This document shows, in pieces, positions 430 through 15,197 of a stretch of 64,000 nt of DNA (the first letter of the stretch is position 1; each line of letters starts with the position of its first letter). Origin of the DNA: a virus; IMG/VR virus record IMGVR_UViG_3300032265_001591, positions 1 through 64,000 of that record, one strand, 5' to 3'. The notes under the pieces were generated by a model. It was given only the letters and a program-made list of their open reading frames with translations, had not been told where the DNA came from and did not search any database. The position numbers and the translations under genes are program-made.

Positions 430-458
430 TGTACATAATTAATGCATAAATGTAGAAT
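430..458 (+). promoter_or_regulatory. Early promoter 2 (TGTACA-17-TAGAAT)
   Basis: TGTACA 430-435 and TAGAAT 453-458 with 17 bp between. The intervening sequence (ATAATTAATGCATAAATG) is nearly identical to promoters 3 and 4. Drives the 92-aa gene at 488. Confidence 0.8.
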
Positions 459-487
459 GGTCTCCTAAACTGAATAAAGGAATGAAC

Positions 488-766
488 ATGACTGAAGACC
501 AACTGATGGCGGCGATGTCGATGAAGAACCGGCACTCCAGGAACTTCCTCATGTGCCTGGACCCGCAGGCCAGCGACTTCGACCAGCAAGTGGCAAGCCT
601 CCGGCGAGTGGCTCGCGTCAGTGGGCGTGGCATCAGGATTCGTGGTCGCCTGGGGAAGAACAACCCGCACCGACACCTGTATGCGGTAGGCGGCTCGCTG
701 TACCGGCCTAGCAGCCAGGACATTCGCATTGAGCACTCCGTGCGGGTTGACATCTACCTGAAGTAG
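488..766 (+). CDS. Small basic early protein, unknown function
   Basis: 92 aa, rich in Arg and His, with a central Gly/Arg stretch (SGRGIRIRGRLGKNN) that suggests nucleic-acid binding, although no known family is recognised. The ATG at 488 is chosen because AAAGGA sits about 7 nt before it; an in-frame ATG at 482 would overlap that ribosome binding site. It is the first gene of the early block and has its own promoter at 430-458. Expected to act very early in infection by position and promoter; function not known. Confidence 0.7.
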   Translation: MTEDQLMAAMSMKNRHSRNFLMCLDPQASDFDQQVASLRRVARVSGRGIRIRGRLGKNNPHRHLYAVGGSLYRPSSQDIRIEHSVRVDIYLK

Positions 767-791
767 CGCCGACCCAGGGACACCTGGGGCC

Positions 792-820
792 TGTACATAA
801 TTAATGCATAAATGTAGAAT
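792..820 (+). promoter_or_regulatory. Early promoter 3 (TGTACA-17-TAGAAT)
   Basis: TGTACA 792-797, TAGAAT 815-820, 17 bp spacer. Precedes the 58-aa gene at 849. Confidence 0.8.
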
Positions 821-848
821 GGTCACCTCAATGCAAAAAGGAATCGAC

Positions 849-1025
849 ATGAACAACATCGACATCGAAGACATGGGCGCGGACGACCTGATGAACATCC
901 TGTTGACCCAGGGTCAGGACGCCTTCGAGGACGCCTTCAGTCAGTGGTACACCGACGAGAACCAGACCGTGTACGACCTGGTGATTCAACTGGTCGACCT
1001 GGTGAAGACCAACGCTTGCATGTAA
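849..1025 (+). CDS. Small acidic early protein, unknown function
   Basis: 58 aa, strongly acidic (repeated Asp/Glu in the first 40 residues) with an amphipathic C-terminal half (DLVIQLVDLVKTN). Start at 849 follows AAAAAGGAATCGAC; an in-frame ATG also lies 18 nt upstream at 831. Acidic mini-proteins in early phage regions often bind host enzymes, but nothing here identifies a target. Confidence 0.65.
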   Translation: MNNIDIEDMGADDLMNILLTQGQDAFEDAFSQWYTDENQTVYDLVIQLVDLVKTNACM

Positions 1026-1039
1026 AGAGTCCCTGGGTT

Positions 1040-1063
1040 CCCTGGTGAAATGATTCACCAGGG
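1040..1063 (+). terminator. Perfect 10-bp hairpin before early promoter 4
   Basis: CCCTGGTGAA, loop ATGA, TTCACCAGGG. No U-run follows; the next promoter begins 4 bp later. It may stop or slow read-through between early units. Shorter versions lie at 1987-2003 and 4396-4412. Confidence 0.5.
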
Positions 1064-1066
1064 GCC

Positions 1067-1095
1067 TGTACATAATTAATGCATAAATGTAGAAT
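1067..1095 (+). promoter_or_regulatory. Early promoter 4 (TGTACA-17-TAGAAT)
   Basis: TGTACA 1067-1072, TAGAAT 1090-1095, 17 bp spacer. Precedes the gene at 1125. Confidence 0.8.
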
Positions 1096-1124
1096 GGCCT
1101 CCTAAACTGAATAAAGGAATCACC

Positions 1125-1325
1125 ATGATTAACGAAAAAGACGTCGAGATCCTCTTGGCCAATCTGTCCACCGGCACCGAGACGGAGTTCGCCAACCTGC
1201 TGTTCAACTTCATGCAGGCCGGTCTCGTCGACAAGGACCGGTTCCGGGACATCATCATCGGTGCCCGGGCGAAGGCCTACGACGACGGAATGGACGCGAA
1301 TTCTGACCGAGGCATTTGGACCTAA
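1125..1325 (+). CDS. Small early protein, unknown function
   Basis: 66 aa, predicted helical, acidic N-terminal half and a mixed-charge centre (DKDRFRDIIIGARAKAYDDG). The start follows AATAAAGGAATCACC, the standard leader of this block. It has its own promoter and its neighbours are all similar-sized unknowns. No family recognised. Confidence 0.65.
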   Translation: MINEKDVEILLANLSTGTETEFANLLFNFMQAGLVDKDRFRDIIIGARAKAYDDGMDANSDRGIWT

Positions 1326-1332
1326 CACGGCC

Positions 1333-1361
1333 TGTACATAATTAATTCATAAAGGTAGAAT
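1333..1361 (+). promoter_or_regulatory. Early promoter 5 (TGTACA-17-TAGAAT)
   Basis: TGTACA 1333-1338, TAGAAT 1356-1361, 17 bp spacer. Precedes the 185-aa gene at 1391. Confidence 0.8.
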
Positions 1362-1390
1362 GGCTACCTCAGTTAAATAAAGGAATCATC

Positions 1391-1948
1391 ATGAACGACA
1401 TCACCTCCGCCCTTGCTTCCCTCAACGTCCCGGTTGGCACCAGCATCACCGAGGCCGTCAAGAACGTCCGCACCTACATCCAGGGCGACCTGGACCCCAC
1501 CGGCGAACTGGCTCGTGCCTACTCTGTGGCAGAGTCCCTGGGCGTCACTGACCCGGCCTCCATCCTGGGTGACAAGCCCCAGCGAGCCCGACTGTTTGCC
1601 ACCAGCCTGGTGGCCAGTGCCCTGGCGGTACCTACTCGGTTCGACGTCAAGGAAGCCATTGACACCGCCATCGAAAAGGTTGCCAACCTGGAGAAGATGG
1701 GTGTGGTGTCCAAGGGTACCAAGGAACCCAAGGCCAAGGTCGAGAAGCCGGTCAAGGCTCCCAAGGCGACCGGCACCAAGGCTCCTCGTGCCCCTTCGAC
1801 CCACGTCAACCTGGCCCAGGCCATCGCCATCTACCAGGCTGATCCCGGCTGCCGAGTGTACGACCTGGTGACCCGTGTGGCCGAGGCCTACAACGTCGAC
1901 CGCAACAAGGCCTACTCCATCCTTCACCGGGCTCGGAAGGCGGCCTGA
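1391..1948 (+). CDS. Early protein with Lys/Pro/Ala linker and C-terminal helical domain
   Basis: 185 aa, the largest gene of the early block. Residues 1-110 look helical and neutral; about 112-138 form a basic Lys/Pro/Ala linker (repeats such as KAPKATGTKAPRAP); about 140-185 form a compact domain ending VDRNKAYSILHRARKAA, which could be a helix-turn-helix, though this is only a reading of the pattern. A DNA-binding or nucleoid-associated role would suit the linker and basic tail. Own promoter at 1333-1361 and ribosome binding site AAAGGA. A 213-aa open frame on the opposite strand is a shadow of GC-rich codon usage. Confidence 0.7.
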   Translation: MNDITSALASLNVPVGTSITEAVKNVRTYIQGDLDPTGELARAYSVAESLGVTDPASILGDKPQRARLFATSLVASALAVPTRFDVKEAIDTAIEKVANLEKMGVVSKGTKEPKAKVEKPVKAPKATGTKAPRAPSTHVNLAQAIAIYQADPGCRVYDLVTRVAEAYNVDRNKAYSILHRARKAA

Positions 1949-1986
1949 CCCAGGGCCTTCACCAGGGTACTCGTCCAACGGGGTAC

Positions 1987-2003
1987 CCTGGTGAATCACC
2001 AGG
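1987..2003 (+). terminator. Short hairpin before early promoter 6
   Basis: CCTGGT-GAATC-ACCAGG, matching the right part of the hairpin at 1040-1063 and placed the same way, between a stop codon and the next promoter. No U-run. Confidence 0.35.
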
Positions 2004-2007
2004 CCTG

Positions 2008-2036
2008 TGTACATAATTAATCATAAAGTGTAGAAT
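2008..2036 (+). promoter_or_regulatory. Early promoter 6 (TGTACA-17-TAGAAT)
   Basis: TGTACA 2008-2013, TAGAAT 2031-2036, 17 bp spacer. Drives a three-gene unit (2066-2632). Confidence 0.8.
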
Positions 2037-2065
2037 GGCTTCACAATATGGAAAAAGGAATGAAC

Positions 2066-2233
2066 ATGGCCACTCGACTTGACTACCTCCGCGATTGTGT
2101 TGCTGCCCTCCAGGAAGAACTGGCGGGCTACCTGGTGAACGGCGCCACGCCGGAAACCATCGAGGCCGTGACTTACGACCTGAACTGGCACCTGGATGCC
2201 TTCGAGGTCGAATACAACCTTGACTGCCAATAG
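2066..2233 (+). CDS. Small early protein, unknown function
   Basis: 55 aa, helical, acidic. ATG 2066 follows AAAAAGGAATGAAC; an in-frame ATG lies 18 nt upstream (2048). First gene of a three-gene operon, 10 bp from the next gene, which has its own ribosome binding site (TAGGAGGAAC). No family recognised. Confidence 0.65.
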   Translation: MATRLDYLRDCVAALQEELAGYLVNGATPETIEAVTYDLNWHLDAFEVEYNLDCQ

Positions 2234-2243
2234 GAGGAACACC

Positions 2244-2423
2244 ATGAAGTACAGCGTTCACAGTCGTCTGACGGAATCCACCAGCTACCCCATCCAGTGG
2301 TACGTCTGCGACGAGCTCGGTCGGTGGGTTCACACCGAACCCTTCCTGACCAAGGAGATGGCCGAGGAATTCCTGAAGGGGTTCCTGGTGTGGGTTGAAT
2401 CAACTGAACCGGGAGTCCTTTAA
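2244..2423 (+). CDS. Small early protein, unknown function
   Basis: 59 aa with an aromatic-rich first half (YPIQWYVCDELGRWV) and a helical second half. Start 2244 follows AGGAGGAACACC; an earlier in-frame ATG (2196) lies inside the previous gene and has no ribosome binding site. Its stop overlaps the next start (TAATG), so translation is probably coupled. Confidence 0.65.
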   Translation: MKYSVHSRLTESTSYPIQWYVCDELGRWVHTEPFLTKEMAEEFLKGFLVWVESTEPGVL

Positions 2424-2632
2424 TGAGCAAGGGTATCACTCAAAAGATGGCTGACAAGATGGTCGAATACCGCATCATTGGTATGAATTCATTCGGGCCA
2501 TTCACTCACGGTCCGGATATCAAGTCATACGCCAAGGCGGTCAAGGAACTTGAGGGATATCGGAAGCGCCCGCATTCACCGTCGACCACCTATACGCTAA
2601 TCGAAGTCACTTGCACCGCCCTTCCAGTCTAG
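2423..2632 (+). CDS. Small basic early protein, unknown function
   Basis: 69 aa, basic (YAKAVKELEGYRKRPHSP). Start overlaps the preceding stop by one base. The pattern of YRIIGMNSFGPFTHGPDIKSYAKAVKELEGY resembles small phage proteins that take a compact alpha/beta fold, but no named family can be given. Confidence 0.6.
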   Translation: MSKGITQKMADKMVEYRIIGMNSFGPFTHGPDIKSYAKAVKELEGYRKRPHSPSTTYTLIEVTCTALPV

Positions 2633-2640
2633 GAGGCCTG

Positions 2641-2669
2641 TGTACATTAATTCGCATAAAGTATAAGAT
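2641..2669 (+). promoter_or_regulatory. Early promoter 7 (TGTACA-17-TAAGAT)
   Basis: TGTACA 2641-2646, TAAGAT 2664-2669. The -10 box differs from the TAGAAT of the others, so this copy may be weaker. Confidence 0.7.
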
Positions 2670-2697
2670 CTATCCATATTCAAAAAGGAACTGATCA

Positions 2698-2892
2698 ATG
2701 AAGCTGCAGGTCACCATTGGTAACGACTTCACCATGAACACCACGCCCCAGGCCCTGGGTCGCTGCTTCAGCCAGGAGGACGCCAGCATCCTGAAAGACA
2801 TGCTGAACCTGTCGGCGGTCCTTCACCTGGAAGGCGAGAGCGTCAACCAGTACATCGACGGCGTCCGTTACGCCGTCACCGTCATCAAGTAA
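2698..2892 (+). CDS. Small early protein, unknown function
   Basis: 64 aa, mixed beta and helix (TIGNDFTMNTTPQAL, then SILKDMLNLSAVLHLEG). Ribosome binding site AAAAAGGAA. Followed by a 55-aa gene after 10 bp. No family recognised. Confidence 0.6.
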   Translation: MKLQVTIGNDFTMNTTPQALGRCFSQEDASILKDMLNLSAVLHLEGESVNQYIDGVRYAVTVIK

Positions 2893-2902
2893 GGAGAATA
2901 CC

Positions 2903-3070
2903 ATGAGCAACCCCCTTGTGAACAACTTTTTCATTGACATGTTGCTGATCATCCTCCGCGACCAGGGCGAGGAAACCTTCTTCAAGCGTACCTTCAATGC
3001 CAAGGAGTATGGGCTCCTGAACCAGGAGGAATTCGAGTTCCTGATGGAAAAGGCTCTGGCCATCATCTAA
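2903..3070 (+). CDS. Small early protein, unknown function
   Basis: 55 aa. ATG 2903 follows AAGGAGAATACC. Predicted helical with a hydrophobic first third (NNFFIDMLLIILRDQG) and an acidic end. Not a clear membrane protein because charged residues interrupt the hydrophobic run. Second gene behind promoter 7. Confidence 0.55.
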   Translation: MSNPLVNNFFIDMLLIILRDQGEETFFKRTFNAKEYGLLNQEEFEFLMEKALAII

Positions 3071-3077
3071 AGGCCTG

Positions 3078-3106
3078 TGTACATTATTTGGTCATAAATG
3101 TAGAAT
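3078..3106 (+). promoter_or_regulatory. Early promoter 8 (TGTACA-17-TAGAAT)
   Basis: TGTACA 3078-3083, TAGAAT 3101-3106, 17 bp spacer. Precedes the gene at 3136. Confidence 0.8.
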
Positions 3107-3135
3107 AGCTACATCAAATGAATAAAGGAATGAAC

Positions 3136-3387
3136 ATGAACTACCGCAACGACATCCTTGACATGACCCGCCTGTACACCGCCCAGGAGTACAACCTCCC
3201 GGTGGCCAGCTACTGCTTGGCCCAAGCGGTTGAGCAGGTCGCTGATTACTGGTTCGAAGGCAACTTCGAGTTTGACTGCGGCATGGACGCGCAGGAAGCC
3301 GTGTGGACTGCCGGGTTGGTCCACATGGTGATGGTGAAGTACTTCGAGCTGGAACAGGAGGCCAACGTTCGTGGCGCAATGTTTTAA
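3136..3387 (+). CDS. Small early protein, unknown function
   Basis: 83 aa, helical. The layout (MNY start, a Val/Ala helix, then a FEFDCGMDAQEA segment and a hydrophobic helix) parallels the next gene, which has CEFDYDKDAQWLE at the same place, so the two may be diverged paralogues. Start follows AATAAAGGAATGAAC; an in-frame ATG lies 18 nt upstream. Confidence 0.65.
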   Translation: MNYRNDILDMTRLYTAQEYNLPVASYCLAQAVEQVADYWFEGNFEFDCGMDAQEAVWTAGLVHMVMVKYFELEQEANVRGAMF

Positions 3388-3393
3388 GGCCTG

Positions 3394-3422
3394 TGTACAT
3401 TAATTAGTCATAAAGGTAGAAT
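3394..3422 (+). promoter_or_regulatory. Early promoter 9 (TGTACA-17-TAGAAT)
   Basis: TGTACA 3394-3399, TAGAAT 3417-3422, 17 bp spacer. The -35 begins 7 bp after the preceding stop codon. Confidence 0.8.
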
Positions 3423-3451
3423 AGCTCCATCAAATGGAAAAAGGAATCGAC

Positions 3452-3736
3452 ATGAACTACGCCTTCAACATCCTCGTCACCCTCCTTGCCACTCGCGCTG
3501 CCAACTCCCTGGGTCTGACCCTGGGCATGAAGAAGGTCGACCGCCTGGTCCGCGAAGCCACCGAGATCGTGGTGATGGACTGGTGCGAATTCGACTACGA
3601 CAAGGACGCCCAGTGGCTGGAACTGATCGCCAGCGTGGAAGCCGGTTCGGATGACGGCGAGGACCTGGTGAGTGCCATCATCAGTCAGATGAACTTCATG
3701 GGCACCCTCGTCCAGGTTGAACGCCTGGCGGCCTAA
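3452..3736 (+). CDS. Small early protein, possible paralogue of the preceding gene
   Basis: 94 aa, helical. Shares with the preceding 83-aa protein the MNY start and a FDY-x-x-DAQ segment near the middle. Start 3452 follows AAAAAGGAATCGAC. Function unknown. Confidence 0.65.
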   Translation: MNYAFNILVTLLATRAANSLGLTLGMKKVDRLVREATEIVVMDWCEFDYDKDAQWLELIASVEAGSDDGEDLVSAIISQMNFMGTLVQVERLAA

Positions 3737-3742
3737 GGCCTG

Positions 3743-3771
3743 TGTACATTAATTAGTCATAAAGGTAGAAT
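3743..3771 (+). promoter_or_regulatory. Early promoter 10 (TGTACA-17-TAGAAT)
   Basis: TGTACA 3743-3748, TAGAAT 3766-3771, 17 bp spacer. Nearly identical to promoter 9. Confidence 0.8.
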
Positions 3772-3800
3772 GGTATCACCAAATGAATAAAGGAATGAAC

Positions 3801-4040
3801 ATGAAACTCTTCATCATCACCGACGTCCTTTCCGACTACACCACCGGCATGGTGGCCATCAAGGCCGAGTCCCTGGAACAGGCTCGTGAGTTCTTTGTGA
3901 AAGGCCAGTCCGAGTACATCGAGAGCGTCATCGAGGAATTTGATGACGCCATCAAGAATGGTTGCTACACCGAATTCGACCTGGCGGACACCGACGACAA
4001 AGATTCGGGTGTCATCGTTGAGGTTTATGGTGGCGGTTAG
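3801..4040 (+). CDS. Small acidic early protein, unknown function
   Basis: 79 aa, acidic. MKLFIITDVLSDYTTGMVAI looks like a beta-strand start, followed by a helix (ESLEQAREFFVKG) and an acidic tail (DLADTDDKDSG). The outline resembles compact phage alpha/beta mini-proteins but no family is named. Standard leader and own promoter. Confidence 0.65.
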   Translation: MKLFIITDVLSDYTTGMVAIKAESLEQAREFFVKGQSEYIESVIEEFDDAIKNGCYTEFDLADTDDKDSGVIVEVYGGG

Positions 4041-4054
4041 TCACCAGGAACCTG

Positions 4055-4083
4055 TGTACATTAATTGCGCATAAAGGTAGAAT
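4055..4083 (+). promoter_or_regulatory. Early promoter 11 (TGTACA-17-TAGAAT)
   Basis: TGTACA 4055-4060, TAGAAT 4078-4083, 17 bp spacer. Precedes the gene at 4113. Confidence 0.8.
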
Positions 4084-4112
4084 AGCTCCATCAAATGGAA
4101 AAAGGAATCGAC

Positions 4113-4388
4113 ATGAAAAACGCATACCCCCGGTTGTCCCAAGAAGCAAAGACCAGCTGGAGATCCACTTACATGGATTTCTCCAAGAAGTCCCTTAAGA
4201 ACGCTCTGGCTACCATGAAAGACTACATTGAAATGGAAGGCGATGCTGAAGCTGTTCGCGAAGTCCAGGAGGCCTTGAAGAAGTGCCTGGACATTGTCAC
4301 TGACCTGGGCAAGAAAGAAGACGAGGCGATACGTGAATCGTACAAGAAGCGTGTGCGTGAGGAGTCTGAACAGGAAGCCATGGGTTAA
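4113..4388 (+). CDS. Small highly charged helical early protein
   Basis: 91 aa, almost wholly helical with dense Lys/Glu pairs (KKSLKNALATMKDYIEMEG, then LGKKEDEAIRESYKKRVREE), likely a coiled coil. Slightly less GC-rich than its neighbours. Start follows AAAAAGGAATCGAC. No family recognised. Confidence 0.65.
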   Translation: MKNAYPRLSQEAKTSWRSTYMDFSKKSLKNALATMKDYIEMEGDAEAVREVQEALKKCLDIVTDLGKKEDEAIRESYKKRVREESEQEAMG

Positions 4389-4395
4389 TGACAAC

Positions 4396-4412
4396 CCTGG
4401 TGATTCACCAGG
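4396..4412 (+). terminator. Short hairpin before early promoter 12
   Basis: CCTGGT-GATTC-ACCAGG, same element as at 1987-2003, placed between a stop codon and a promoter. Confidence 0.35.
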
Positions 4413-4418
4413 AACCTG

Positions 4419-4447
4419 TGTACATTAATTAGTCATAAAGGTACAAT
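4419..4447 (+). promoter_or_regulatory. Early promoter 12 (TGTACA-17-TACAAT)
   Basis: TGTACA 4419-4424, TACAAT 4442-4447, 17 bp spacer. Last of the series; drives five genes to 5203. Confidence 0.8.
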
Positions 4448-4476
4448 GGCTACATCAAATGAATAAAGGAATCACC

Positions 4477-4665
4477 ATGACGCACACCGAACAGCTCGAC
4501 CTCCTGACCTCGCGCTTCCCGGACGCCAACTCCATCCTCAAGGTGGACGGCCTCTGGGAAGTGACCGAGTTTATCGGCGACATCAGCGAGGAGCGTGACC
4601 TCTACGCCTACGTCCCTGGGACCAAGAAGTTCAATTTCATCGGTCACATTTCAGTCGAAATCTAA
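4477..4665 (+). CDS. Small early protein, unknown function
   Basis: 62 aa, mixed alpha/beta, acidic centre (EFIGDISEERDLYAYVPG). Start follows AATAAAGGAATCACC. First gene of the last early operon, 11 bp from the next gene. Confidence 0.65.
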   Translation: MTHTEQLDLLTSRFPDANSILKVDGLWEVTEFIGDISEERDLYAYVPGTKKFNFIGHISVEI

Positions 4666-4676
4666 GGAGACACACC

Positions 4677-4913
4677 ATGCCTTCCATGTCATACTGCATG
4701 TTCGAGAACACCACCCTCGAGATGGATCAGATCCTCAACACCCTCGAGGAGGCCCTTGAACGGGGCCAGGACCTCAAGCTCTCGCGCGACGAACAGTACG
4801 CCTACGACCGGCTGGTCTTCCAATGCAAGCGGTTCCTTCGGTTCCAGGACCTCACGGCAGAAGAGGTTGACCTGACCGATAGCTGCTACATCGACGCCGA
4901 CGACCTGGTCTAA
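4677..4913 (+). CDS. Small acidic early protein, unknown function
   Basis: 78 aa, helical and acidic, with three Cys residues that do not form a zinc motif. Start 4677 follows AAGGAGACACACC. Followed 10 bp later by a tiny membrane-peptide gene with the same AAGGAGGACCAC leader. Confidence 0.65.
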   Translation: MPSMSYCMFENTTLEMDQILNTLEEALERGQDLKLSRDEQYAYDRLVFQCKRFLRFQDLTAEEVDLTDSCYIDADDLV

Positions 4914-4923
4914 GGAGGACCAC

Positions 4924-5010
4924 ATGGAATATCTGACTGAGCTGACGATTTTGCTGTCCGTCGTGTGCCTCTGGGCCGTTCAAGCCTGGAATACCAGGAA
5001 TAACAAGTAA
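4924..5010 (+). CDS. 28-aa single-span membrane peptide
   Basis: 28 codons with a hydrophobic run (LTILLSVVCLWAVQAW) and a charged C-terminus (NTRNNK). Ribosome binding site AAGGAGG at 4912-4918. First of three consecutive tiny membrane-peptide genes, so it is probably real despite its size. Such peptides may act at the host membrane; no family recognised. Confidence 0.55.
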   Translation: MEYLTELTILLSVVCLWAVQAWNTRNNK

Positions 5011-5020
5011 GGAGGACCAC

Positions 5021-5098
5021 ATGGACTACATTTCAGAACTGATGATTGGCCTGGCCGTTTTCACCTACATCACTGTCCAAATCTGGGGGGACAAGTAA
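5021..5098 (+). CDS. 25-aa single-span membrane peptide
   Basis: 25 codons; resembles the preceding peptide (MDYISEL versus MEYLTEL at the N-terminus, then a hydrophobic span), so the two probably arose by duplication. Leader AAGGAGGACCAC is identical to that of its neighbour. Confidence 0.55.
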   Translation: MDYISELMIGLAVFTYITVQIWGDK

Positions 5099-5203
5099 AT
5101 GACCGCTGCCGACCTGGTCGAGGTAACCACCATCATCACCGTTGGCTGCTTGATCTACCTGCTGCTGTGGTGGCTCCAGGGCGGGGACCTCAAGGATGAT
5201 TAG
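5099..5203 (+). CDS. 34-aa single-span membrane peptide
   Basis: 34 codons, ATG directly adjoining the previous stop (TAAATG). Hydrophobic span TIITVGCLIYLLLWWL followed by an acidic end. Last gene of the early block. Confidence 0.5.
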   Translation: MTAADLVEVTTIITVGCLIYLLLWWLQGGDLKDD

Positions 5204-5267
5204 TCCCGCCTAGCCTAGTCCCGCCTGGCCTGCCCAGCCCAGCCTAATCCCGCCCTACCTGCCCAGC
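5201..5267. repeat. Short GC-rich direct repeats
   Basis: TAGTCCCGCCT at 5201-5211 and 5217-5227, variant TAATCCCGCCCT at 5245-5256, and CTGCCCAGC at 5230-5238 and 5259-5267. They start at the stop codon of the last early gene. Confidence 0.6.
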
Positions 5268-5318
5268 AGCCAACCCTACCCCAGGTCCACGGCTGCGAGG
5301 GCTACAACACCCGCCACC

Positions 5319-5359
5319 ACGGTCCACTAGTACTCCCCGCTAGGTACTAGATGGACCGT
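5319..5359 (+). terminator. Strong 15-bp hairpin, possible end of the early unit
   Basis: ACGGTCCACTAGTAC (5319-5333) pairs with 5344-5359 with a single bulged A at 5351; loop TCCCCGCTAG. No U-run follows, so it may be a processing or stability element rather than an intrinsic terminator. It lies in a 595-bp gene-free stretch (5204-5798) in which I also see a weaker GGGTCCC/GGGACCC pair (5509-5515 and 5529-5535) and no gene. Confidence 0.5.
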
Positions 5360-5732
5360 TGCCTTATGCGTGACCCGTGCAGACCCCCAGCCAGACCCAG
5401 GGGCTAACCTAGGGTAACCGGCAGGGGAGGGGTGGGAAGACCGGTTCCCTGGTGATCGGGGTCCGAACAATGGCGGCAAATCCAGAACAATGGCCATAGT
5501 GGAAAACTGGGTCCCATATTCTTCGCTGGGGACCCCATATATATGGATTCCTTAATTCTCTATGGGACTTCTACACATCACCTCCAGACTCTTACATGCA
5601 TTCTCTAAGGATCCACCACACACTTCTAAAAAACTTCCGTTTTCCAATCTAAGAGTTACTTCTAAGAACTGCATAAGAAAAAATTTCCGGGCCAGAAAAA
5701 TTCAAAAAACCCTCATTCAAATAAGAAGGCTA

Positions 5733-6438: not shown

Positions 6439-6686
6439 ACTACAAGCACAAGTATAATGGTTTCTCTTACGAGCCTGTTCAGTCCGGTAAGGGTGATAAG
6501 TACAACTTGGTTCATAACGTGACTAACACACAAACAAATGAAACTTTTCAAGCTGAGTTTACTCCTTATTGTCATATGAGTAAGATTGACTTTGAGAACT
6601 ACATCGACCTTGGATGTCCGCCTAAGCGTGAAGTACGAATGCTGTCAAGTGATACTCTTCGACGTATGAAAAATAAACAGCTATAA
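6435..6686 (+). CDS. Unknown small protein with TTG start
   Basis: 83 aa. The start is read as TTG at 6435, overlapping the TGA of the preceding gene, because no ATG is available near the upstream boundary and the frame is fully coding from there. Basic at both ends (YKHKYNG; RRMKNKQL). Function unknown. Confidence 0.5.
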   Translation: MNYKHKYNGFSYEPVQSGKGDKYNLVHNVTNTQTNETFQAEFTPYCHMSKIDFENYIDLGCPPKREVRMLSSDTLRRMKNKQL

Positions 6687-6689
6687 ATA
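6682..6689 (+). promoter_or_regulatory. T4-type late promoter TATAAATA
   Basis: Exact TATAAATA overlapping the end of the previous gene, 28 bp upstream of the speD-like ATG. T4 late promoters have this -10 element and no -35 element; the phage also encodes gp33, which acts on them. Confidence 0.55.
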
Positions 6690-6716: not shown

Positions 6717-7067
6717 ATGGCTTTAGGGTACCATACGATTCTTGAGTGCTACGAGTGTGATGAGGATTTACTCAAGGACCAGGCTATGCTTGAAGAATAC
6801 TTAGTCGCTTCAGCTCAAGAGGCGAGTGCTACTGTTCTTCATACTTATTTTCATAAGTTTGATCGGGGTGAAGGAGTGACCGGCGTGATTGCTTTGTCTG
6901 AATCCCACATCTCCGTTCACACCTGGCCTGAATATGGTTACATGGCCATCGACATCTTCATGTGCGGTGACAGCAATCCAATCGATGCTGCTGACTTCTT
7001 AATAAATAATTTAAGGATCGGGAAGTTTTCGATCAATACGATCAACCGTGGGGATGACTTTACTTAA
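6717..7067 (+). CDS. speD: S-adenosylmethionine decarboxylase-like protein (SpeD family)
   Basis: 116 aa, the size of the bacterial class 1B proenzyme. LSESHISVHTWPE (about residues 60-72) is the family signature: self-cleavage between Glu and Ser generates the catalytic pyruvoyl group from Ser. IDIFMCGD supplies the conserved Cys. The family removes CO2 from S-adenosylmethionine to give the aminopropyl donor for spermidine; some relatives decarboxylate ornithine or arginine instead, so the substrate is not certain. Related speD genes are carried by cyanophages. It is followed after 11 bp by pqqA, so both are probably on one late transcript from TATAAATA at 6682. Confidence 0.85.
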   Translation: MALGYHTILECYECDEDLLKDQAMLEEYLVASAQEASATVLHTYFHKFDRGEGVTGVIALSESHISVHTWPEYGYMAIDIFMCGDSNPIDAADFLINNLRIGKFSINTINRGDDFT

Positions 7068-7078
7068 GGAGAACTCTT

Positions 7079-7150
7079 ATGTGGACAACACCAACATTTA
7101 ATGATGTACGTTTTGGCTTTGAAGTCACCATGTACATTCATACTCGATAA
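7079..7150 (+). CDS. pqqA: PqqA, precursor peptide of pyrroloquinoline quinone
   Basis: 23 aa: MWTTPTFNDVRF then GFEVTMYIHTR. The size, the MW start, and the E-x-x-x-Y pair at Glu15 and Tyr19 are exactly those of PqqA, whose Glu and Tyr side chains are cross-linked by PqqE (with PqqD) and cut out to form PQQ. PQQ is the cofactor of periplasmic methanol dehydrogenases. The ribosome binding site AAGGAG lies 7 nt before ATG. No pqqB-E genes are seen in the window, so the host enzymes would process the peptide. The gene sits between speD and the formaldehyde-fixing genes hps and phi. The last codons overlap the -35 box of the promoter for hps. Confidence 0.88.
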   Translation: MWTTPTFNDVRFGFEVTMYIHTR

Positions 7151-7159
7151 GTATATAAT
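7131..7159 (+). promoter_or_regulatory. Promoter of hps-phi inside the end of pqqA (TGTACA-17-TATAAT)
   Basis: TGTACA 7131-7136 (within the Met18-Tyr19-Ile20 codons of pqqA), 17 bp, TATAAT 7154-7159. Same -35 and spacing as the early promoters, but with a consensus -10. Confidence 0.7.
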
Positions 7160-7173
7160 ATATCTGAAACAAC

Positions 7174-7215
7174 ACCCGTGACGCCTCTCCATGAAGCGCA
7201 CCAGCACGGGTTTTT
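7174..7215 (+). terminator. Terminator-like hairpin with U-run in the hps leader
   Basis: ACCCGTG (7174-7180) pairs with CACGGGT (7205-7211), followed by TTTTT (7211-7215); the loop is 24 nt. It lies downstream of the predicted transcription start of the hps promoter (about 7166), so it would act on both pqqA read-through and hps transcripts and may be an attenuator. Confidence 0.5.
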
Positions 7216-7235
7216 AACCTTGAGGAAAGTAAATA

Positions 7236-7871
7236 ATGGCATTGATTCAAGCAGCACTCGATACTCTAGACTATGAACAAACAATTCGTCTAGCACAACG
7301 CATCTCACCCTATGTAGATATCATTGAACTCGGCACTCCATGTGTCAAATATAATGGTATTCGTATTGTTGAAACTGTTCACACATTGATTCCAAAGTGT
7401 CTAACACTTGCCGATCTTAAGACGATGGATGCTGGGTATTATGAAGCATTACCATTCTACGAAGTTGGGGCTGATATCGTCACCGTTCTTGGTGCTGCTG
7501 ATGCTGGTACAATCAAAGGAGTAGTTGAAGCGTCTAAGACTACTAAAGCCCAAGCACAAGTTGATCTTATTAATGTAAAGAATAAGCTAGAAACAGTTGC
7601 ACTTGCTTATGAGCTTGGTGCTCATATTATTGGTGTACATACTGGACTAGATCAGCAAGCAAAAGGTCAGACTCCTTTTGAAGATCTAAGGAAAGTTCAG
7701 CAAATGAAAGTTGGTCTAAAGATCTCTGTTGCTGGTGGTATCAATAAAGATACTGTTCGTCAAGCAATTGATGCTGGTGCTGATATCGTTGTAGTAGGTG
7801 CAGCGATCTACGGTGCTGCTGATCCTGTTCGCGCTGCAGCTGAGATTTGGGAAGCTGTTGAACGTGGCTAA
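7236..7871 (+). CDS. hps: 3-hexulose-6-phosphate synthase
   Basis: 211 aa, full length for the family. It condenses formaldehyde with ribulose 5-phosphate to D-arabino-3-hexulose 6-phosphate, the first step of the ribulose monophosphate pathway, in the cytoplasm. It has the orotidine-phosphate-decarboxylase-type barrel: ADLKTMDAG (about residues 65-75) holds the catalytic Asp/Lys/Asp set, IIGVHTGLDQQAKGQTP is the family signature that separates it from KGPDC and OMPDC, and SVAGGIN and VVVGAAIYGA bind phosphate. Ribosome binding site GAGGAAAG. The start codon of phi overlaps its end, the usual hps-phi arrangement. Confidence 0.93.
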   Translation: MALIQAALDTLDYEQTIRLAQRISPYVDIIELGTPCVKYNGIRIVETVHTLIPKCLTLADLKTMDAGYYEALPFYEVGADIVTVLGAADAGTIKGVVEASKTTKAQAQVDLINVKNKLETVALAYELGAHIIGVHTGLDQQAKGQTPFEDLRKVQQMKVGLKISVAGGINKDTVRQAIDAGADIVVVGAAIYGAADPVRAAAEIWEAVERG

Positions 7872-8430
7872 TTATTCTGATGTTCTTGATATTGTAAGAG
7901 ACGAACTACTTTATACCGAAAAGGAAACATGTCAGCAGCTTATTGATGTACTCATTCATACGATAAGTCGGAAAGAACATTATAACGGTGGAAGAGTGTT
8001 TATTGCTGCTGCTGGTAGATCTAAGATGGTTGCCAATATGTTTGCGATGCGAATGATGCATTGTGGGCTAAATGTGCAGGTAGTTGGAGAAACTACTACA
8101 ACTCAGATAACGAGATTTGATTCGCTTCTTCTTGTTTCCGGTTCGGGTGAGACTAAGCAGTTAATTACTTTTGCTGAGAAGGCAAAGTCAGTTCGTTCTG
8201 AAGTATTGTTAGTTACAGCAAATCCAACTTCTACTCTTAGGAATATGGCTGATGAGGTTTTTCAGATTGGTCCATCAAGTAGAGCTCTGTCTACAAACAA
8301 GAATCTTCCTCTTGGTAGCAGGTTTGAACTCTCTACTATGATATTCTTTGAGACAGTCATTCTTAATTTTATGGAACAACTTCAATTAAATGAAGATAAT
8401 CTAAGAGACTGTCATACTAACTTAGAATAA
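7864..8430 (+). CDS. phi: 6-phospho-3-hexuloisomerase
   Basis: About 188 aa. It isomerises 3-hexulose 6-phosphate to fructose 6-phosphate, the second step of the RuMP pathway. It is a SIS-domain protein: AAAGRSKMVANMFAMRM (about 42-58) and VSGSGET (about 89-95) are the sugar-phosphate binding loops, and SRFELSTMIFFE near the end is typical. The start is uncertain: GTG at 7864 (8-base overlap with hps) gives an N-terminus MANYSDVLDIV, and TTG at 7858 is an alternative. No ATG fits. Overlap implies translational coupling with hps. Confidence 0.9.
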   Translation: MANYSDVLDIVRDELLYTEKETCQQLIDVLIHTISRKEHYNGGRVFIAAAGRSKMVANMFAMRMMHCGLNVQVVGETTTTQITRFDSLLLVSGSGETKQLITFAEKAKSVRSEVLLVTANPTSTLRNMADEVFQIGPSSRALSTNKNLPLGSRFELSTMIFFETVILNFMEQLQLNEDNLRDCHTNLE

Positions 8431-8509
8431 TAAATAGTATTGTTGGTATGGTCGTATGAAGTAAAGGGAAGGTATTCTGGACGCGGGTGCGAATCCCGCC
8501 ACCTCCACC

Positions 8510-8576
8510 AAAAGCATATTGGGATAAGCTTTCGTGTTTAGGCTTTAGAGTGCCGTATTAACGCCAATATGCTTTT
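8510..8576 (+). other. Intervening segment of the tmRNA precursor with 13-bp perfect stem
   Basis: AAAAGCATATTGG (8510-8522) is perfectly complementary to CCAATATGCTTTT (8564-8576). The stem would hold the two mature ends together before processing by tRNA-type nucleases (RNase P at the 5' end 8580). Confidence 0.75.
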
Positions 8577-8648
8577 GACGGGGGTGACTAGATTCGACAG
8601 GGTAAGATACTGATACAGACGACTCGGTAGGCGATGACCGTAAATCAA

Positions 8649-8705
8649 GCAAAAAATATAAAAGCCAACGATGACTTTTACGGAGATTATGCACTAGCTG
8701 CATAA
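8649..8705 (+). other. tmRNA tag reading frame
   Basis: From resume codon GCA: AKNIKANDDFYGDYALAA then TAA. The ALAA end is the standard ClpXP-type degron. 18 codons. Confidence 0.85.
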
Positions 8706-8776
8706 TTCTTCTGGGGTTTCGCCAGCTGTCCTTATTACCCAATCAGCTGGCACTATTTAATCATTAGAGTTTTATT

Positions 8777-9205
8777 ATGGATACTCACCCGCGAAAGCGG
8801 AATCAAAAGATTCTTGACTTCCTCTCCAAAGCCGCTGAAGCCGCAGACCATGCCGGTATACGTGCTAAGTTAGCAGCCGCAGTTGTCATCAAAAATGAGA
8901 TTATTTCAATTGGATTCAATCGTAGAAAAACTCATCCCTTTCAAGCACAGTTTCAAACAAATGAACAACAGATTTATTTACATGCTGAAACCGATGCTAT
9001 CAATCGAGCACTCAAATACGTAACAAAAGAAGAGTTGCGCAAAGCTACTCTTTACGTTGCTCGTGTAAAATATAAAGACGGACGAAATAAACAAGCTATT
9101 TGGGCTGAGAGCAAACCGTGTATTGGTTGCCAAAAAGCCATCAAATCATATGGAATTGTTAATGTTATTCATACTTGCGATGGGGGTGTATACAAATCTA
9201 TCTAA
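8777..9205 (+). CDS. Zinc-dependent cytidine/dCMP-type deaminase
   Basis: 142 aa. HAE at LHAETDAI (about residues 73-80) and PCIGCQKAI (about 114-122) give the zinc ligands and the catalytic Glu of the CDA fold. The family deaminates dCMP, cytidine or related bases; in T4-like phages dCMP deaminase feeds dTMP synthesis, which would suit the ThyX and NrdAB genes nearby. The allosteric dCTP site of T4 Cd cannot be recognised, so the exact substrate is open. Confidence 0.75.
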   Translation: MDTHPRKRNQKILDFLSKAAEAADHAGIRAKLAAAVVIKNEIISIGFNRRKTHPFQAQFQTNEQQIYLHAETDAINRALKYVTKEELRKATLYVARVKYKDGRNKQAIWAESKPCIGCQKAIKSYGIVNVIHTCDGGVYKSI

Positions 9206-9241: not shown

Positions 9242-10369
9242 ATGTTATCTTTTGTTCAATACATACTAGAAGTAGCTTTAAGTGCAAGCGGTAACCGCGC
9301 AGAATATCATGCTTCTAAATATTTGGACCCATATATCGGTGGGCATGAAACAGTTAAGCATGTACTTAATGCACCAACTCAAATAGGTGATATTTTACAC
9401 CCTGCCGGCACAGAGATTACTGTTCATGCTTCACGTGATGAACATGGTAATAGGATTACTAGAGGAAAGCATGGAGCTTTTCATAGTGTTGTATCTGTAA
9501 ATGGCGGCCCTCGTCATGAAATTTCAAATTCTAGGATTAAAAAACCTAATTTAGGTAATGCTAATGCAAACAATAAAGCATTTGCTGATGCATTTGAAGC
9601 ATATACTGTAAAAAGAATACATCATATGACAACACATAATAATGATGATCCAGTTCATAAAAAAAGAATGGCAGATATTCAACGTGCTTTTAATGAAGCA
9701 GCTAGTAAAATTCCAATGCATTTGCGTAAAAGAGCAAAAACCTTAGGTAAAAGAGCGGCAAACGCATATCTAAAAAGTTTAGAGAGTCAAGGAATAACTA
9801 AAGATGATATACATGAAGTTCATTTGACCAATAAAGGAATAAGCAACGCAATTGGAAGAGAAGTTTCACGTCGCAATAATCCACATGATATAATCATAAA
9901 AACTAAAGATGGTAAATTTCACGGAGCTTCATTAAAAGCTAGTGAAGGCACAGTGAGTAATAATGGTCTAAAGACATTTGATGAACATTCAATATTTAAT
10001 GGTAAACCTACCAATATAAAAGGAGCGTGGGTAGCACAATCAAATGGAAATGCTGCGGCTGAACACCATGCAAATATGTTTAATTCAGCAAATGATAAAG
10101 AAAAAAAAGATCACTTGCATTACTTACTTAAAAGTCATCCTGATGTGCCATATCATTATGTAGTTGCTGATCAAGATAAATCTATATCCATTGAAAACCA
10201 TCCTGTTATAAAAGCAATAAATAAAGCAACAAAAATAACAGCTGAACGTAGAGGTGCAAATGTTCATTTCTATGATCAAGATGGAAAACACTTAGCTTAC
10301 GTGGAACATCGTCGTCCAGGTAAAGGAAAATCACCACAAGCAAATGCTAAATTTGGGAGTTTAAAATGA
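9242..10369 (+). CDS. Capsid-targeted protein with possible nuclease domain
   Basis: 375 aa. The N-terminus MLSFVQYILEVAL resembles the capsid-targeting sequence of T4 internal proteins (MKTYQEFIAEA), with ILE as a possible prohead-protease cut site, so the protein may be packed in the head and injected. Around residues 215-240, NPHDIIIKTKDG and GASLKASEG look like the D-(x)n-[ESQ]-x-K core of PD-(D/E)XK nucleases; this is a pattern reading, not a firm assignment. Highly basic and rich in His and Asn. First of four overlapping or adjoining genes (9242-12784). Confidence 0.55.
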   Translation: MLSFVQYILEVALSASGNRAEYHASKYLDPYIGGHETVKHVLNAPTQIGDILHPAGTEITVHASRDEHGNRITRGKHGAFHSVVSVNGGPRHEISNSRIKKPNLGNANANNKAFADAFEAYTVKRIHHMTTHNNDDPVHKKRMADIQRAFNEAASKIPMHLRKRAKTLGKRAANAYLKSLESQGITKDDIHEVHLTNKGISNAIGREVSRRNNPHDIIIKTKDGKFHGASLKASEGTVSNNGLKTFDEHSIFNGKPTNIKGAWVAQSNGNAAAEHHANMFNSANDKEKKDHLHYLLKSHPDVPYHYVVADQDKSISIENHPVIKAINKATKITAERRGANVHFYDQDGKHLAYVEHRRPGKGKSPQANAKFGSLK

Positions 10370-11313
10370 AATCATTTATTACATTCATCGTTGAATCAAT
10401 AAGACAAGGATTGCCACATATCACAAAGATGACTCGTGATCAATTTGACAATTTAACTAAAGATGGTAAAGTTCATTTAAATAAGATTACCGAAAAGACT
10501 GATGGCATGACCCATATGATGGGGTATGATGAACATGGGTTTTATACTCAAAGTTCTGGTTCAGGCAATGAGAAAATGAGAAGTCCTCAAGATTTTGTTG
10601 ATAGAGCAACAAGAAGATCACAAGAAACAGGCAAACCTCTTGATCTTACTGCAGCAAATTCATTTGGTCATATTCATAAGATTCTTCATGCTAACCAAGG
10701 CTTACAAGATCATTTAAGATCACAGTTTGAAAAAACTGGACAAGAAGTTAAAGTTCGTGGTGAAGCTTTTTATAAACCACTTTCGACTCCATCTGAAACA
10801 ACTCCAGGTGAAATTAAATTTGTTGGCACTTCATATGATCCTTCACATATGGGATCAGTTGGTAAATATGTTATTCATTCACAATTACCAGAAAATCATC
10901 ATGTAGATCTTGAGCATTTCAAATCACACTTATCTACACCTGAAATGAATTTTGATGATGATATCATTAAGCATAAGCCTGCGCATCTTGATGTATCTGA
11001 TGAAGTTAAAGATTATCATGGATTAAATCATGAACTTCTTGCTGCAAGAACATCTCCAAAAAATAAAGAAGCTAAAGAAGCAGAGAATGCTAAATTTGAT
11101 GCCATCAAGCAAAGAGTATCTGATAAAGTCGATGCTCATTTCAAATCAGCGGGGTTGACTCCTAAATGGGGAAGTGGTTCAGAAGGATTTGTAGTTCATC
11201 CTTCATCTGAAAATCCTGAAGCTCCTCGATTTAAAAAAACTTCAGATGATTTTAGAGCTTATAAAGCAAATCCTGAAAATGCTGCTAACTTTAAGAAAAG
11301 GCAAACGACATGA
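10366..11313 (+). CDS. Capsid-targeted ligase-type nucleotidyltransferase
   Basis: 315 aa; start overlaps the previous stop (ATGA). The N-terminus MKSFITFIVES matches the capsid-targeting pattern. EKTDGMTHMMGYDEHG (about residues 41-56) fits motif I K-x-D-G of the ATP-dependent ligase/RNA ligase superfamily, VRGEAFYKP resembles motif III, and EGFVVHP motif IV, with basic RFKK as a candidate motif V. These enzymes adenylylate their own Lys and seal nucleic-acid ends. Being in the capsid, it could repair or modify DNA or RNA on entry; this is inference. Confidence 0.65.
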   Translation: MKSFITFIVESIRQGLPHITKMTRDQFDNLTKDGKVHLNKITEKTDGMTHMMGYDEHGFYTQSSGSGNEKMRSPQDFVDRATRRSQETGKPLDLTAANSFGHIHKILHANQGLQDHLRSQFEKTGQEVKVRGEAFYKPLSTPSETTPGEIKFVGTSYDPSHMGSVGKYVIHSQLPENHHVDLEHFKSHLSTPEMNFDDDIIKHKPAHLDVSDEVKDYHGLNHELLAARTSPKNKEAKEAENAKFDAIKQRVSDKVDAHFKSAGLTPKWGSGSEGFVVHPSSENPEAPRFKKTSDDFRAYKANPENAANFKKRQTT

Positions 11314-12176
11314 TTAGATTTGTACAATTTATTTTAGAAGGTGGTAATATAAAGATCGGCGACGTATCAGCCGCGCCATTTTCTGTTACTGAAAAAAATA
11401 GAAGTGAGAGAGTTAAAGACGCTAAAGATGCTTTAAGTGAATTGCATGATTCATTCCATAAAGAACATGGTGAAGAATTATTTGGTAAAAATAAAAAGGG
11501 ATTAGCAAGCGGATCTATATTTGCAGGATCAACGCGACAACTAATGGATCCAAAAATTAGTGATAGCGAATTTGCTAAACATAAATCAACTGTTGGTGAC
11601 ATGGATGTTCAGGTGATGAGAGATCATGGTGATAAACTTACATCGCATTTAACACCCGGCAAACGATTTGGTAAATATACTGTAGTTGGAACTAAGAAAC
11701 ATGGTAATGAAATTTCAGCAGTGATGAAACACGACAATGGTGAACACCATCAATTTGATTTTGAAAAAGTGCATTATGAAAATGGTGAGCCAACTCCAGC
11801 TGAACAATTTCTTCATAGTGCAAATTGGGAAGATACAAAGGCAGGAATTAAAGGTGCTCATCATAAGATCCTTTTAAATGCTGCTGGTGGCACTACACAT
11901 AAGTTTTCAATCTCACACGGTTTACGTTCAAGAACTGATGAATCTGATCCGGGCGCACAACATCCAAATGATGTGTCAGCAAGACTGTTTGGCAATAAAG
12001 CAGATCATTCAAAAGTTACTTCATTCTTAGGAGTGTCTGATTTAATTAAGAATCATATTCCTAAAGAACAACACCAAGCAATCTATGATAAATTTAAAGA
12101 AGGTGTTTCACGATTAAAAGTTGATAATGAACCTGCGCTTGCACACTTAAGAAAAACATTAGGAGTTCATGACTAA
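11310..12176 (+). CDS. Capsid-targeted pol-beta-type nucleotidyltransferase
   Basis: 288 aa; overlaps its neighbours by 4 and 1 bases. The N-terminus MIRFVQFILEGG carries the capsid-targeting pattern. GSIFAGSTRQL followed by VGDMDVQV (about residues 69-98) is the GS-(x)n-D-x-D metal-binding motif of the DNA polymerase beta nucleotidyltransferase superfamily (which includes tRNA CCA-adding and antibiotic-modifying enzymes); FEKVHY may supply a third acidic residue. Substrate unknown. Confidence 0.65.
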   Translation: MIRFVQFILEGGNIKIGDVSAAPFSVTEKNRSERVKDAKDALSELHDSFHKEHGEELFGKNKKGLASGSIFAGSTRQLMDPKISDSEFAKHKSTVGDMDVQVMRDHGDKLTSHLTPGKRFGKYTVVGTKKHGNEISAVMKHDNGEHHQFDFEKVHYENGEPTPAEQFLHSANWEDTKAGIKGAHHKILLNAAGGTTHKFSISHGLRSRTDESDPGAQHPNDVSARLFGNKADHSKVTSFLGVSDLIKNHIPKEQHQAIYDKFKEGVSRLKVDNEPALAHLRKTLGVHD

Positions 12177-12784
12177 TGAAGAGCTTAAGGGCATTTATCT
12201 ACGAACAAGAAGTGCATCATGTGTCCGTTGTTCCTCTGGTTGGGTTTTCACCTTTATCTCACATGGGGCATGCACATGATTTAGGCGGAACTTTATCCAA
12301 TTTGCCAGGAAGTAAACATGTTGGAATATCAGCAAAGTCTGATGTGTTTACTCCAGAAGAAAGAAAAAATGTTTTAAATAGACAATGGGGTTCTAATGTA
12401 AAAGCAGAAGTTAGCAATTCTGGTGGAGCAACAATCGCTAATGCTTTTAATTCAATGCCTAAGACTGGTAAAAAGGTATTACACATTGTCGTTGGTTCAG
12501 ATCGTCTTGGGTTTGCTGAAGGATTAAAGAACAGTCTTGAAGCAGGAAAAATAAAAGAAATGGGTGATAATAATTTTGATGAGATTCATATTCATACTCC
12601 TAAAGATGAAGATAGAAGTCATGGAATGAGTGGAACAAACATGAGACAAGCTGCAACTAATGGCGATATTGAAACGTTCCATAAACATTTAGGAACAATG
12701 TTCTCAAGACAAGAAGCTCAAGACATGATGAAAAAAACAAAAGAAGCTATTGATTCAGGTAAACTAAAAGTTAAAAGGAAATAA
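12176..12784 (+). CDS. Capsid-targeted HxGH-type nucleotidyltransferase
   Basis: 202 aa. The N-terminus MKSLRAFIYEQE fits the capsid-targeting pattern. GFSPLSHMGHAHDL (about residues 24-37) contains HxGH, and HGMSGTNMRQA (about 154-164) is the ISGT-x-x-R-type motif; together they place it in the NMN adenylyltransferase/cytidylyltransferase superfamily. The substrate is not known; NMN or a small phosphate ester are possible. Third consecutive putative nucleotidyltransferase in the injected set, each of a different fold. Confidence 0.65.
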   Translation: MKSLRAFIYEQEVHHVSVVPLVGFSPLSHMGHAHDLGGTLSNLPGSKHVGISAKSDVFTPEERKNVLNRQWGSNVKAEVSNSGGATIANAFNSMPKTGKKVLHIVVGSDRLGFAEGLKNSLEAGKIKEMGDNNFDEIHIHTPKDEDRSHGMSGTNMRQAATNGDIETFHKHLGTMFSRQEAQDMMKKTKEAIDSGKLKVKRK

Positions 12785-14518: not shown

Positions 14519-14760
14519 TGGAAGAACTTATAAAAGAGATTCTATCTCATAAGAATGAAGATGGTGTTATTGGCGAATTAGCTAATGAACTATATAACAT
14601 AATTGAAGATCATAAAGCTGGTCAAATCACAGATGAAGATCTTAAAGAATTATTGACAGAAACTATTAATGCTTTTAAAGCACATGAAAATGCTAATAAT
14701 GAAGTAATGATTAGATGGGCAGTTAAGATTGCACAACTTGCAGCAAAGGCAATGATATAA
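14518..14760 (+). CDS. Small helical protein, unknown
   Basis: 80 aa, acidic helices (IKEILSHKNEDG, ITDEDLKELLTETINAF). Start at 14518 overlaps the previous stop (TAATG) and its stop overlaps the next start in the same way, so it belongs to a tight operon. Confidence 0.6.
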   Translation: MEELIKEILSHKNEDGVIGELANELYNIIEDHKAGQITDEDLKELLTETINAFKAHENANNEVMIRWAVKIAQLAAKAMI

Positions 14761-15197
14761 TGAATCTCATAGATGCAGTAAAAGTAGTACTAGCAAATAA
14801 TTTTGCACTTTATCTAAAGGCTCACTATTTTCATTGGAATGTAGAAGGTCCAGATTTTGCACAATTTCATGAATTCTTTGAAAATCTTTATACTGATATC
14901 TATAGCTCAATAGATCATTTTGCAGAAGAAATTAGAGCGTTGGACGCATACGCTCCTGGATCTTTTGAACGTTACGTTGAACTTTCTCAGATCAAAGGTG
15001 AAGAAAGAATTTTAACCGCCCCAGAAATGTTACGTCAGTTGCAAATTGATAATCAGACAATGATTGCTTCTATGAATACTGCTTATAATTTAGCTAATGC
15101 AGCAAATGAAATCGGACTTTCAAATTTTATTCAAGATAGAACTGACCAACATAAAAAACACGCTTGGATGATCAGATCATTCCTTAAGGGACAATAA
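14760..15197 (+). CDS. Dps/ferritin-like protein
   Basis: 145 aa, four-helix-bundle length. KAHYFHWNVEGPDFAQFHEFF (split here as KAHYFHWNVEG and FAQFHEFF, residues about 20-41), followed by DHFAEEIRALD (about 57-67), match the ferroxidase His, Asp and Glu positions of Dps. Dps proteins bind iron and protect DNA from oxidative damage. In a methylotroph phage it may protect replicating DNA or be packed in virions. Start overlaps the preceding stop. Confidence 0.75.
   Translation: MNLIDAVKVVLANNFALYLKAHYFHWNVEGPDFAQFHEFFENLYTDIYSSIDHFAEEIRALDAYAPGSFERYVELSQIKGEERILTAPEMLRQLQIDNQTMIASMNTAYNLANAANEIGLSNFIQDRTDQHKKHAWMIRSFLKGQ

Follow-up and report, generated by a model that had tools for sequence, protein, structure and literature searches.

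We found that a T4-like phage carries hps and phi, the genes for 3-hexulose-6-phosphate synthase (HPS) and 6-phospho-3-hexuloisomerase (PHI), together with pqqA, the gene for the PQQ precursor peptide. Probably, these genes constitute an auxiliary metabolic cassette in a lineage of T4-like phages whose host is a gammaproteobacterial RuMP methylotroph or methanotroph, and in which the cassette would raise RuMP flux. The window, that is, the whole stretch of DNA analysed here, comprises 64,000 nt of the 73,723-base IMG/VR virus record IMGVR_UViG_3300032265_001591, and the locus is composed of the following features:

6682–6689, plus strand: T4-type late promoter-like TATAAATA, 28 nt 5′ of speD
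6717–7067, plus strand: speD, S-adenosylmethionine decarboxylase (TIGR03330, 129 bits; cut-off 75.65)
7079–7150, plus strand: pqqA, PQQ precursor peptide of 23 aa, MWTTPTFNDVRFGFEVTMYIHTR (PF08042, 43.5 bits, cut-off 21.1; TIGR02107, 43.9 bits, cut-off 20)
7131–7159, plus strand: promoter-like TGTACA-N17-TATAAT, overlapping and reaching just past the pqqA 3′ end, with the build of the elements at the left end of the window
7172–7215, plus strand: abiF-like small RNA between pqqA and hps, a hairpin followed by a T-run (Rfam model match at 7175–7211)
7236–7871, plus strand: hps (hxlA), HPS of 211 aa (TIGR03128, 232.9 bits; cut-off 200)
7864–8430, plus strand: phi (hxlB), PHI of 188 aa (TIGR03127, 164.6 bits; cut-off 160)
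8418–8796, plus strand: permuted tmRNA gene with the tag ANDDFYGDYALAA (ARAGORN; RF04321, 147.1 bits; RF01850, 121.5 bits)

The first-pass annotation had named pqqA, hps and phi at these positions, and all three indeed scored above curated family cut-offs, albeit with a narrow margin for PHI. The motifs it had quoted were present as well, namely the cross-link residues Glu15 and Tyr19 of PqqA, the DLKTMDAG region and GVHTGLDQQAKGQTP of HPS, and the SIS motifs of PHI. Within HPS, D60-L-K62-T-M-D65 and GVHTGLDQQAKGQTP are both intact, as is the HTGLDQQ motif, and D60, K62, D65 and H135 are invariant in an alignment reaching from the virus through Methylophilaceae to Sulfurospirillum; the closest solved structure, 3ajx, is an HPS (E 5e-41). 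For PHI, we found AAAGRS, SGSGET and PLGSRFE, and residues R52, S53, S92GSG95, E155 and H184, which cover the SIS motifs and the C-terminal His/Glu, are invariant in the PHI alignment; its closest solved structures are YckF of B. subtilis (1m3s), AF1796 (1vim) and MJ1247 (1jeo). The longest listed PHI reading frame begins at GTG 7798; the conserved start is GTG 7864, 8 nt within the hps 3′ end, and this overlap is kept in the relatives. Among the viral copies, dN/dS (NG86, all pairs of distinct sequences) amounted to 0.06–0.22 for hps and 0.07–0.26 for phi and such values in every distinct pair show purifying selection on both enzymes. The PHI branch is long, at about 2 changes per site, and the specificity of the enzyme may therefore be altered.

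That the carrier is a T4-like phage, as first proposed, was borne out by the replication and structural core on the contig—gp32 single-strand binding protein, gp61-type primase, gp59, gp5 and gp6—along with tail tube, baseplate hub, PhoH and the phage's own nucleotide-synthesis genes (NrdAB, thymidylate synthase and dCMP deaminase). The contig has a GC content of 36%; its first 25 kb had no nucleotide-level relative among 50,697 deposited phage records, and the nearest phages by protein are Sinorhizobium phiM12-like phages and cyanophages. HPS and PHI being bacterial enzymes, one might suspect contamination, or bacterial DNA wrongly binned as viral. We rejected this explanation as barely conceivable, because the identical arrangement recurs in separate viral contigs, a phage tmRNA and T4 genes share the contig with hps-phi, and the viral sequences form virus-only clades in both the HPS and the PHI tree. 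Elsewhere on the contig, five proteins (encoded at 9242–12784 and 18766–19110) share an MKxFxxFIxE-type start resembling the T4 capsid-targeting sequence and are possible internal head proteins co-injected with the DNA, and a Ferritin/Dps-like protein (PF00210, 83 bits) is encoded at 14760–15197.

To place the cassette among viruses, we sought relatives in 2.9 million viral contigs by pattern-seeded searches, two of them using alignments. Beyond the window, hps was detected in six viral contigs and phi in seven. A complete, overlapping hps-phi pair is present in seven IMG/VR records including the window, corresponding to six distinct sequences because L004 and L005 are identical across both genes; an eighth record, L010, holds a partial phi only, at the contig end. 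Identity amounts to 72–96% for HPS and 68–96% for PHI, and a sequence resembling the phage tmRNA lies close 3′ of phi in all relatives. Seven records among 2.9 million contigs, as recovered by the pattern-seeded searches, make for a narrow hps-phi lineage. The alignment-based HPS/PHI search of viral contigs revealed no further families, and among the deposited phages in INPHARED there were only distant HPS matches (<41% identity), located in bacterial-looking contigs or short unannotated pieces. As a separate observation, the relative divergence of hps and phi differs between virus pairs (L005 and L011/L012), which suggests recombination within the cassette.

One relative has lost the two enzymes. 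On the 154,777-base viral contig L366 (8121–8320), which the HPS searches did not return, pqqA, the promoter-like sequence and the RNA are kept, and the last 23 codons of phi are fused to a leader and followed by the tmRNA, while hps and most of phi are gone. Here, hps-phi was deleted and a phi remnant left behind; the pair can thus be lost independently of pqqA, and at least one phage can dispense with it.

A ribosome-binding site (AAGGAG) lies directly 5′ of pqqA, and the gene is held by seven of the eight records with hps and/or phi, a co-occurrence tying the lineage to methanol oxidation. It does not always adjoin the pair, being located ~3 kb off on the other strand in L002 and ~24 kb off in G006, and it was not found in G007, an hps/phi-bearing record. 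More widely, the PqqA pattern FGFEVTMY occurs in at least 120 stretches of the 2.9-million-contig viral collection, and PqqA is encoded by nine deposited genomes of isolated Methylophilales phages (Melnitz ×4, P19250A, Venkman, MEP301, MEP401 and MEP402), although five of these records, when examined, contained no feature annotated as PqqA. On the bacterial side, pqqA was present in each of the 100 Methylophilaceae genomes sampled, in ~96 of them in more than one copy (mean ~4, maximum 12); such copy numbers suit a dosage-limited substrate peptide, one of which is used per cofactor. No PQQ_2 domain (PF13360) was detected in the window's genome or its seven relatives, all of which are fragmentary records. 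On present evidence, methanol dehydrogenase must therefore come from the host, and the phage does not, on its known sequence, itself boost the methanol-oxidising enzyme.

We also asked whether PqqA merely provides for general PQQ supply, functionally unconnected with hps-phi and adjacent to it by coincidence. Its remote position in L002 and G006, the failure to find it in G007, the abiF-like RNA gene separating it from hps, its retention in L366 without hps-phi and its presence in isolated Methylophilales phages that have no hps-phi would all fit this explanation. We nevertheless hold it to be rather unlikely, given the co-occurrence in seven of eight records against a rare background of the pqqA pattern, and the conservation of the PqqA core residues.

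The first-pass annotation had described pqqA, hps and phi as a side-by-side module. All three do lie within 7079–8430, but they do not make up one tight operon, because the abiF-like RNA with its promoter-like sequence and terminator-like end intervenes and pqqA is found elsewhere in some relatives. speD and pqqA are probably part of the same late transcript. Five of the eight TATAAATA sites on the contig precede the start of a gene on the same strand by at most 30 nt, compared with a background of 3.5% of positions within 60 nt of a gene start; by count alone, the motif shows no enrichment in the window (6 observed, 7.5 expected). In the second promoter-like element, at 7131–7159, the AGTATATAAT part has been conserved, at the corresponding position, in L003, L005 and L366. 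Separately, positions 1–5500 of the window have a GC content of 47–64%, against 36% for the contig, and contain a run of short genes, most of them preceded by a near-identical promoter-like TGTACA-N17-TAGAAT (~11 clear copies); this region could comprise early takeover genes or be a foreign or chimeric end, either being possible.

The RNA between pqqA and hps matched the abiF RNA family RF03085 with 31.2 bits (E 0.00017), below the gathering score of 37, and for this reason we call it abiF-like only. Across 43 viral stretches (L332–L374), the hairpin core GACGCCUCUC...GAAGCGCACCA is invariant, whereas the outer stems differ and yet remain mostly complementary, that is, they covary; between the window and its relatives, for example, CCCGUG/CACGGG is replaced by CCCACG/CGUGGG in a compensatory stem change. 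When folded alone, the hairpin stretch was no stabler than shuffled sequence (z −0.36), so the case for an abiF-like element rests on the covariation and the Rfam match. A role as an hps riboswitch was considered and set aside, given the abiF motif match and the occurrence of the element in many other viral contigs. The abiF-motif RNAs of Clostridioides difficile bind the AbiF toxin directly and so neutralise it (PMC12373285), and an abiF RNA has been reported from cyanophage S-CREM1 (PMC9964418). Like the antitoxin RNA (RF03085; PMC12373285), the phage hairpin has the conserved GCCUCUC...GA.GC.CA core; unlike it, it scores under the gathering threshold, is present in a single copy and lacks a recognised toxin gene, as no AbiF-type protein was recognised among the contig proteins scanned. 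From these sequence features, it is reasonable to regard the element as a putative orphan antitoxin RNA that would serve counter-defence against the host. A more far-reaching and tentative idea, possible but somewhat doubtful, is that this phage lineage, with methanotrophs or other RuMP gammaproteobacteria as its hosts, uses HPS-PHI to take control of one-carbon assimilation, while the orphan RNA neutralises an AbiF-type RNase defence of the host. If true, the sister phage L366, which has pqqA and the RNA and is devoid of hps-phi, would be a ready-made control.

Trees against Methylophilaceae and viral metagenomes, as suggested in the first-pass annotation, placed the viral sequences in a clade of their own outside Methylophilaceae. 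In the HPS, PHI and joined trees alike, this clade has full support and a long branch leading to it; the joined tree puts it between Methylophilaceae (27 rows, 100/98) and other RuMP gammaproteobacteria, nested in none of them. The latter group consists of the order of G406, which we take to be Methylococcales because its HPS-PHI genes are fused, and a small group with G317. Viral HPS resembles Methylophilaceae and order-G406 sequences to much the same degree, and the best scores of viral PHI are with order-G406 sequences (148 bits vs 134). While family (TIGR03128, TIGR03127), gene order and catalytic residues are those of bacterial RuMP enzymes, the viral proteins share with them only ~54–63% (HPS) and 32–48% (PHI) identity, form a phage-only clade and are encoded by overlapping, unfused genes, in contrast to the fused genes of order G406. 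Accordingly, we rejected a recent capture from any sampled host, the genes being too diverged and nested in no sampled family. Nor did we retain an origin by splitting of a fused methanotroph HPS-PHI, as viral PHI and fused PHI do not cluster together.

PqqA likewise differs from the Methylophilaceae type. The peptides of the sampled Methylophilaceae and most viral PqqA follow the pattern ...[AV]TEMRFGFEVTMYV[MC]N[KR], with a TEM...V signature in every sampled Methylophilaceae PqqA. This signature is missing from the phage peptide; in this phage lineage the pattern is ...F.D.R.GFE...Y[IV]..R, closer to the D-type peptides of other gammaproteobacteria. The Methylophilaceae-like host that had been put forward at first was thus not upheld: HPS and PHI branch outside the sampled Methylophilaceae and order-G406 genes, and with a viral clade nested in no family and a different PqqA type, such a host is unproven. 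Judged from these sequences, a methanotroph or another RuMP gammaproteobacterium would fit at least as well as Methylophilaceae.

The genes, their motifs, selection, co-occurrence, virus context and the loss in one relative are directly established, and from them we infer enzyme activity, direction, timing, benefit and host. In the mechanism we favour, host methanol dehydrogenase, absent from the contig, would make formaldehyde, phage HPS would condense it with ribulose 5-phosphate, and phage PHI would isomerise the HPS product to fructose 6-phosphate. Hexose phosphate would keep flowing via host Zwf/Gnd and transketolase steps, and the NADPH and ribose 5-phosphate would supply the phage's NrdAB, thymidylate synthase and dCMP deaminase. 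At the same time, phage HPS-PHI would clear formaldehyde once synthesis of the host's own enzymes ceases, and phage PqqA, as the substrate peptide of the host's PQQ-making enzymes, would top up the PQQ precursor. From what is known of the pathway, a greater flux of methanol and formaldehyde into hexose phosphate, pentose phosphate and NADPH would be expected.

HPS and PHI are reversible, and their reverse use is known in archaea without a pentose phosphate pathway, from Fae-Hps/Hps-Phi work that PMC10904782 cites as its reference 35. The phage pair might therefore work mainly in reverse, releasing ribulose 5-phosphate and formaldehyde from fructose 6-phosphate and yielding ribose for nucleotides, which would go together with the nucleotide-synthesis genes of the phage. 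We consider this quite unlikely, because PqqA in seven of eight records links the lineage to methanol oxidation, in which case formaldehyde drives the reaction forward, and because reverse use would release a toxic product in a cell that already makes formaldehyde. Alternatively, the pair might serve detoxification, protecting the infected cell while methanol dehydrogenase runs and its own HPS-PHI synthesis has stopped, with carbon gain being secondary. HPS and PHI do detoxify formaldehyde in non-methylotrophs such as Bacillus, and the nearest PDB match of PHI is YckF from B. subtilis. However, a RuMP host assimilates carbon by these very reactions, which makes the two roles hard to separate, and PqqA would raise formaldehyde production rather than lower it; we deem detoxification as the main role unlikely, and favour raised RuMP flux.

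Cyanophage auxiliary genes such as psbA, talC, zwf and gnd channel carbon of the host into NADPH and into the ribose needed for phage DNA. The logic is shared with the present cassette and the pathway differs, formaldehyde fixation taking the place of photosynthesis or the pentose shunt. The first-pass annotation had seen in the cassette a methanol counterpart of the cyanophage photosynthesis genes. As an idea this is not wholly new, being preceded by viral methanol dehydrogenase and PqqA (PMC7678222), by pmoC phages (PMC7674155) and by PqqA in Methylophilales phages. The T4-like Methylophilaceae phages VP_139 and VP_266 from Lake Baikal, described in 2020, carry methanol dehydrogenase, PqqA and S-adenosylmethionine-cycle genes (PMC7678222). 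They resemble our phage in being T4-like, in low GC, in PqqA and in the claimed boost of methanol use and nucleotide synthesis; unlike them, the window has hps-phi and is devoid of a PQQ_2 domain, and the main text on the Baikal phages does not contain the word 'hexulose' (PMC7678222). The pmoC phages of methanotrophs, also from 2020, likewise encode a function in aerobic one-carbon use, yet theirs acts in methane oxidation, the first step, and is >90% like host genes, whereas the genes in the window serve formaldehyde fixation and are old and diverged; that report mentions neither hexulose nor pqq (PMC7674155). A further study reported 24 viral methane-metabolism genes, and its main text lists neither HPS nor PHI as viral (PMC10904782). 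The isolated Methylophilales phages (Melnitz, P19250A, Venkman and MEP301/401/402) share the PqqA peptide but differ in that the deposited ones are without hps and their PqqA is mostly of the Methylophilaceae type.

Full-text literature searches, whose coverage is thin for subscription papers, preprints and supplementary tables, returned no report of viral HPS or PHI, and phage hps-phi appear to be unreported before. If active, the pair would represent, as far as these searches reach, the first known case of a virus-encoded formaldehyde-fixation step. It would also extend phage control of one-carbon metabolism from methane and methanol oxidation to assimilation, the point where methane or methanol carbon becomes biomass. 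HPS and PHI are small, directly testable enzymes, and the natural deletion in L366 offers a comparison.

Finally, the tmRNA gene immediately 3′ of phi in the window was compared with those of Methylophilaceae. Among twelve Methylophilaceae tmRNA loci read, eleven are of the standard type, with tags such as ANDETYALAA, and one, in Novimethylophilus kurashikiensis (G014), is permuted; the phage tag is unlike the usual Methylophilaceae tags. At the DNA level, the phage tmRNA gave only 32–44 nt matches to seven Methylophilaceae genomes. In another viral stretch, L360 (6587–6826), an abiF-like element lies inside the span of a permuted tmRNA match.
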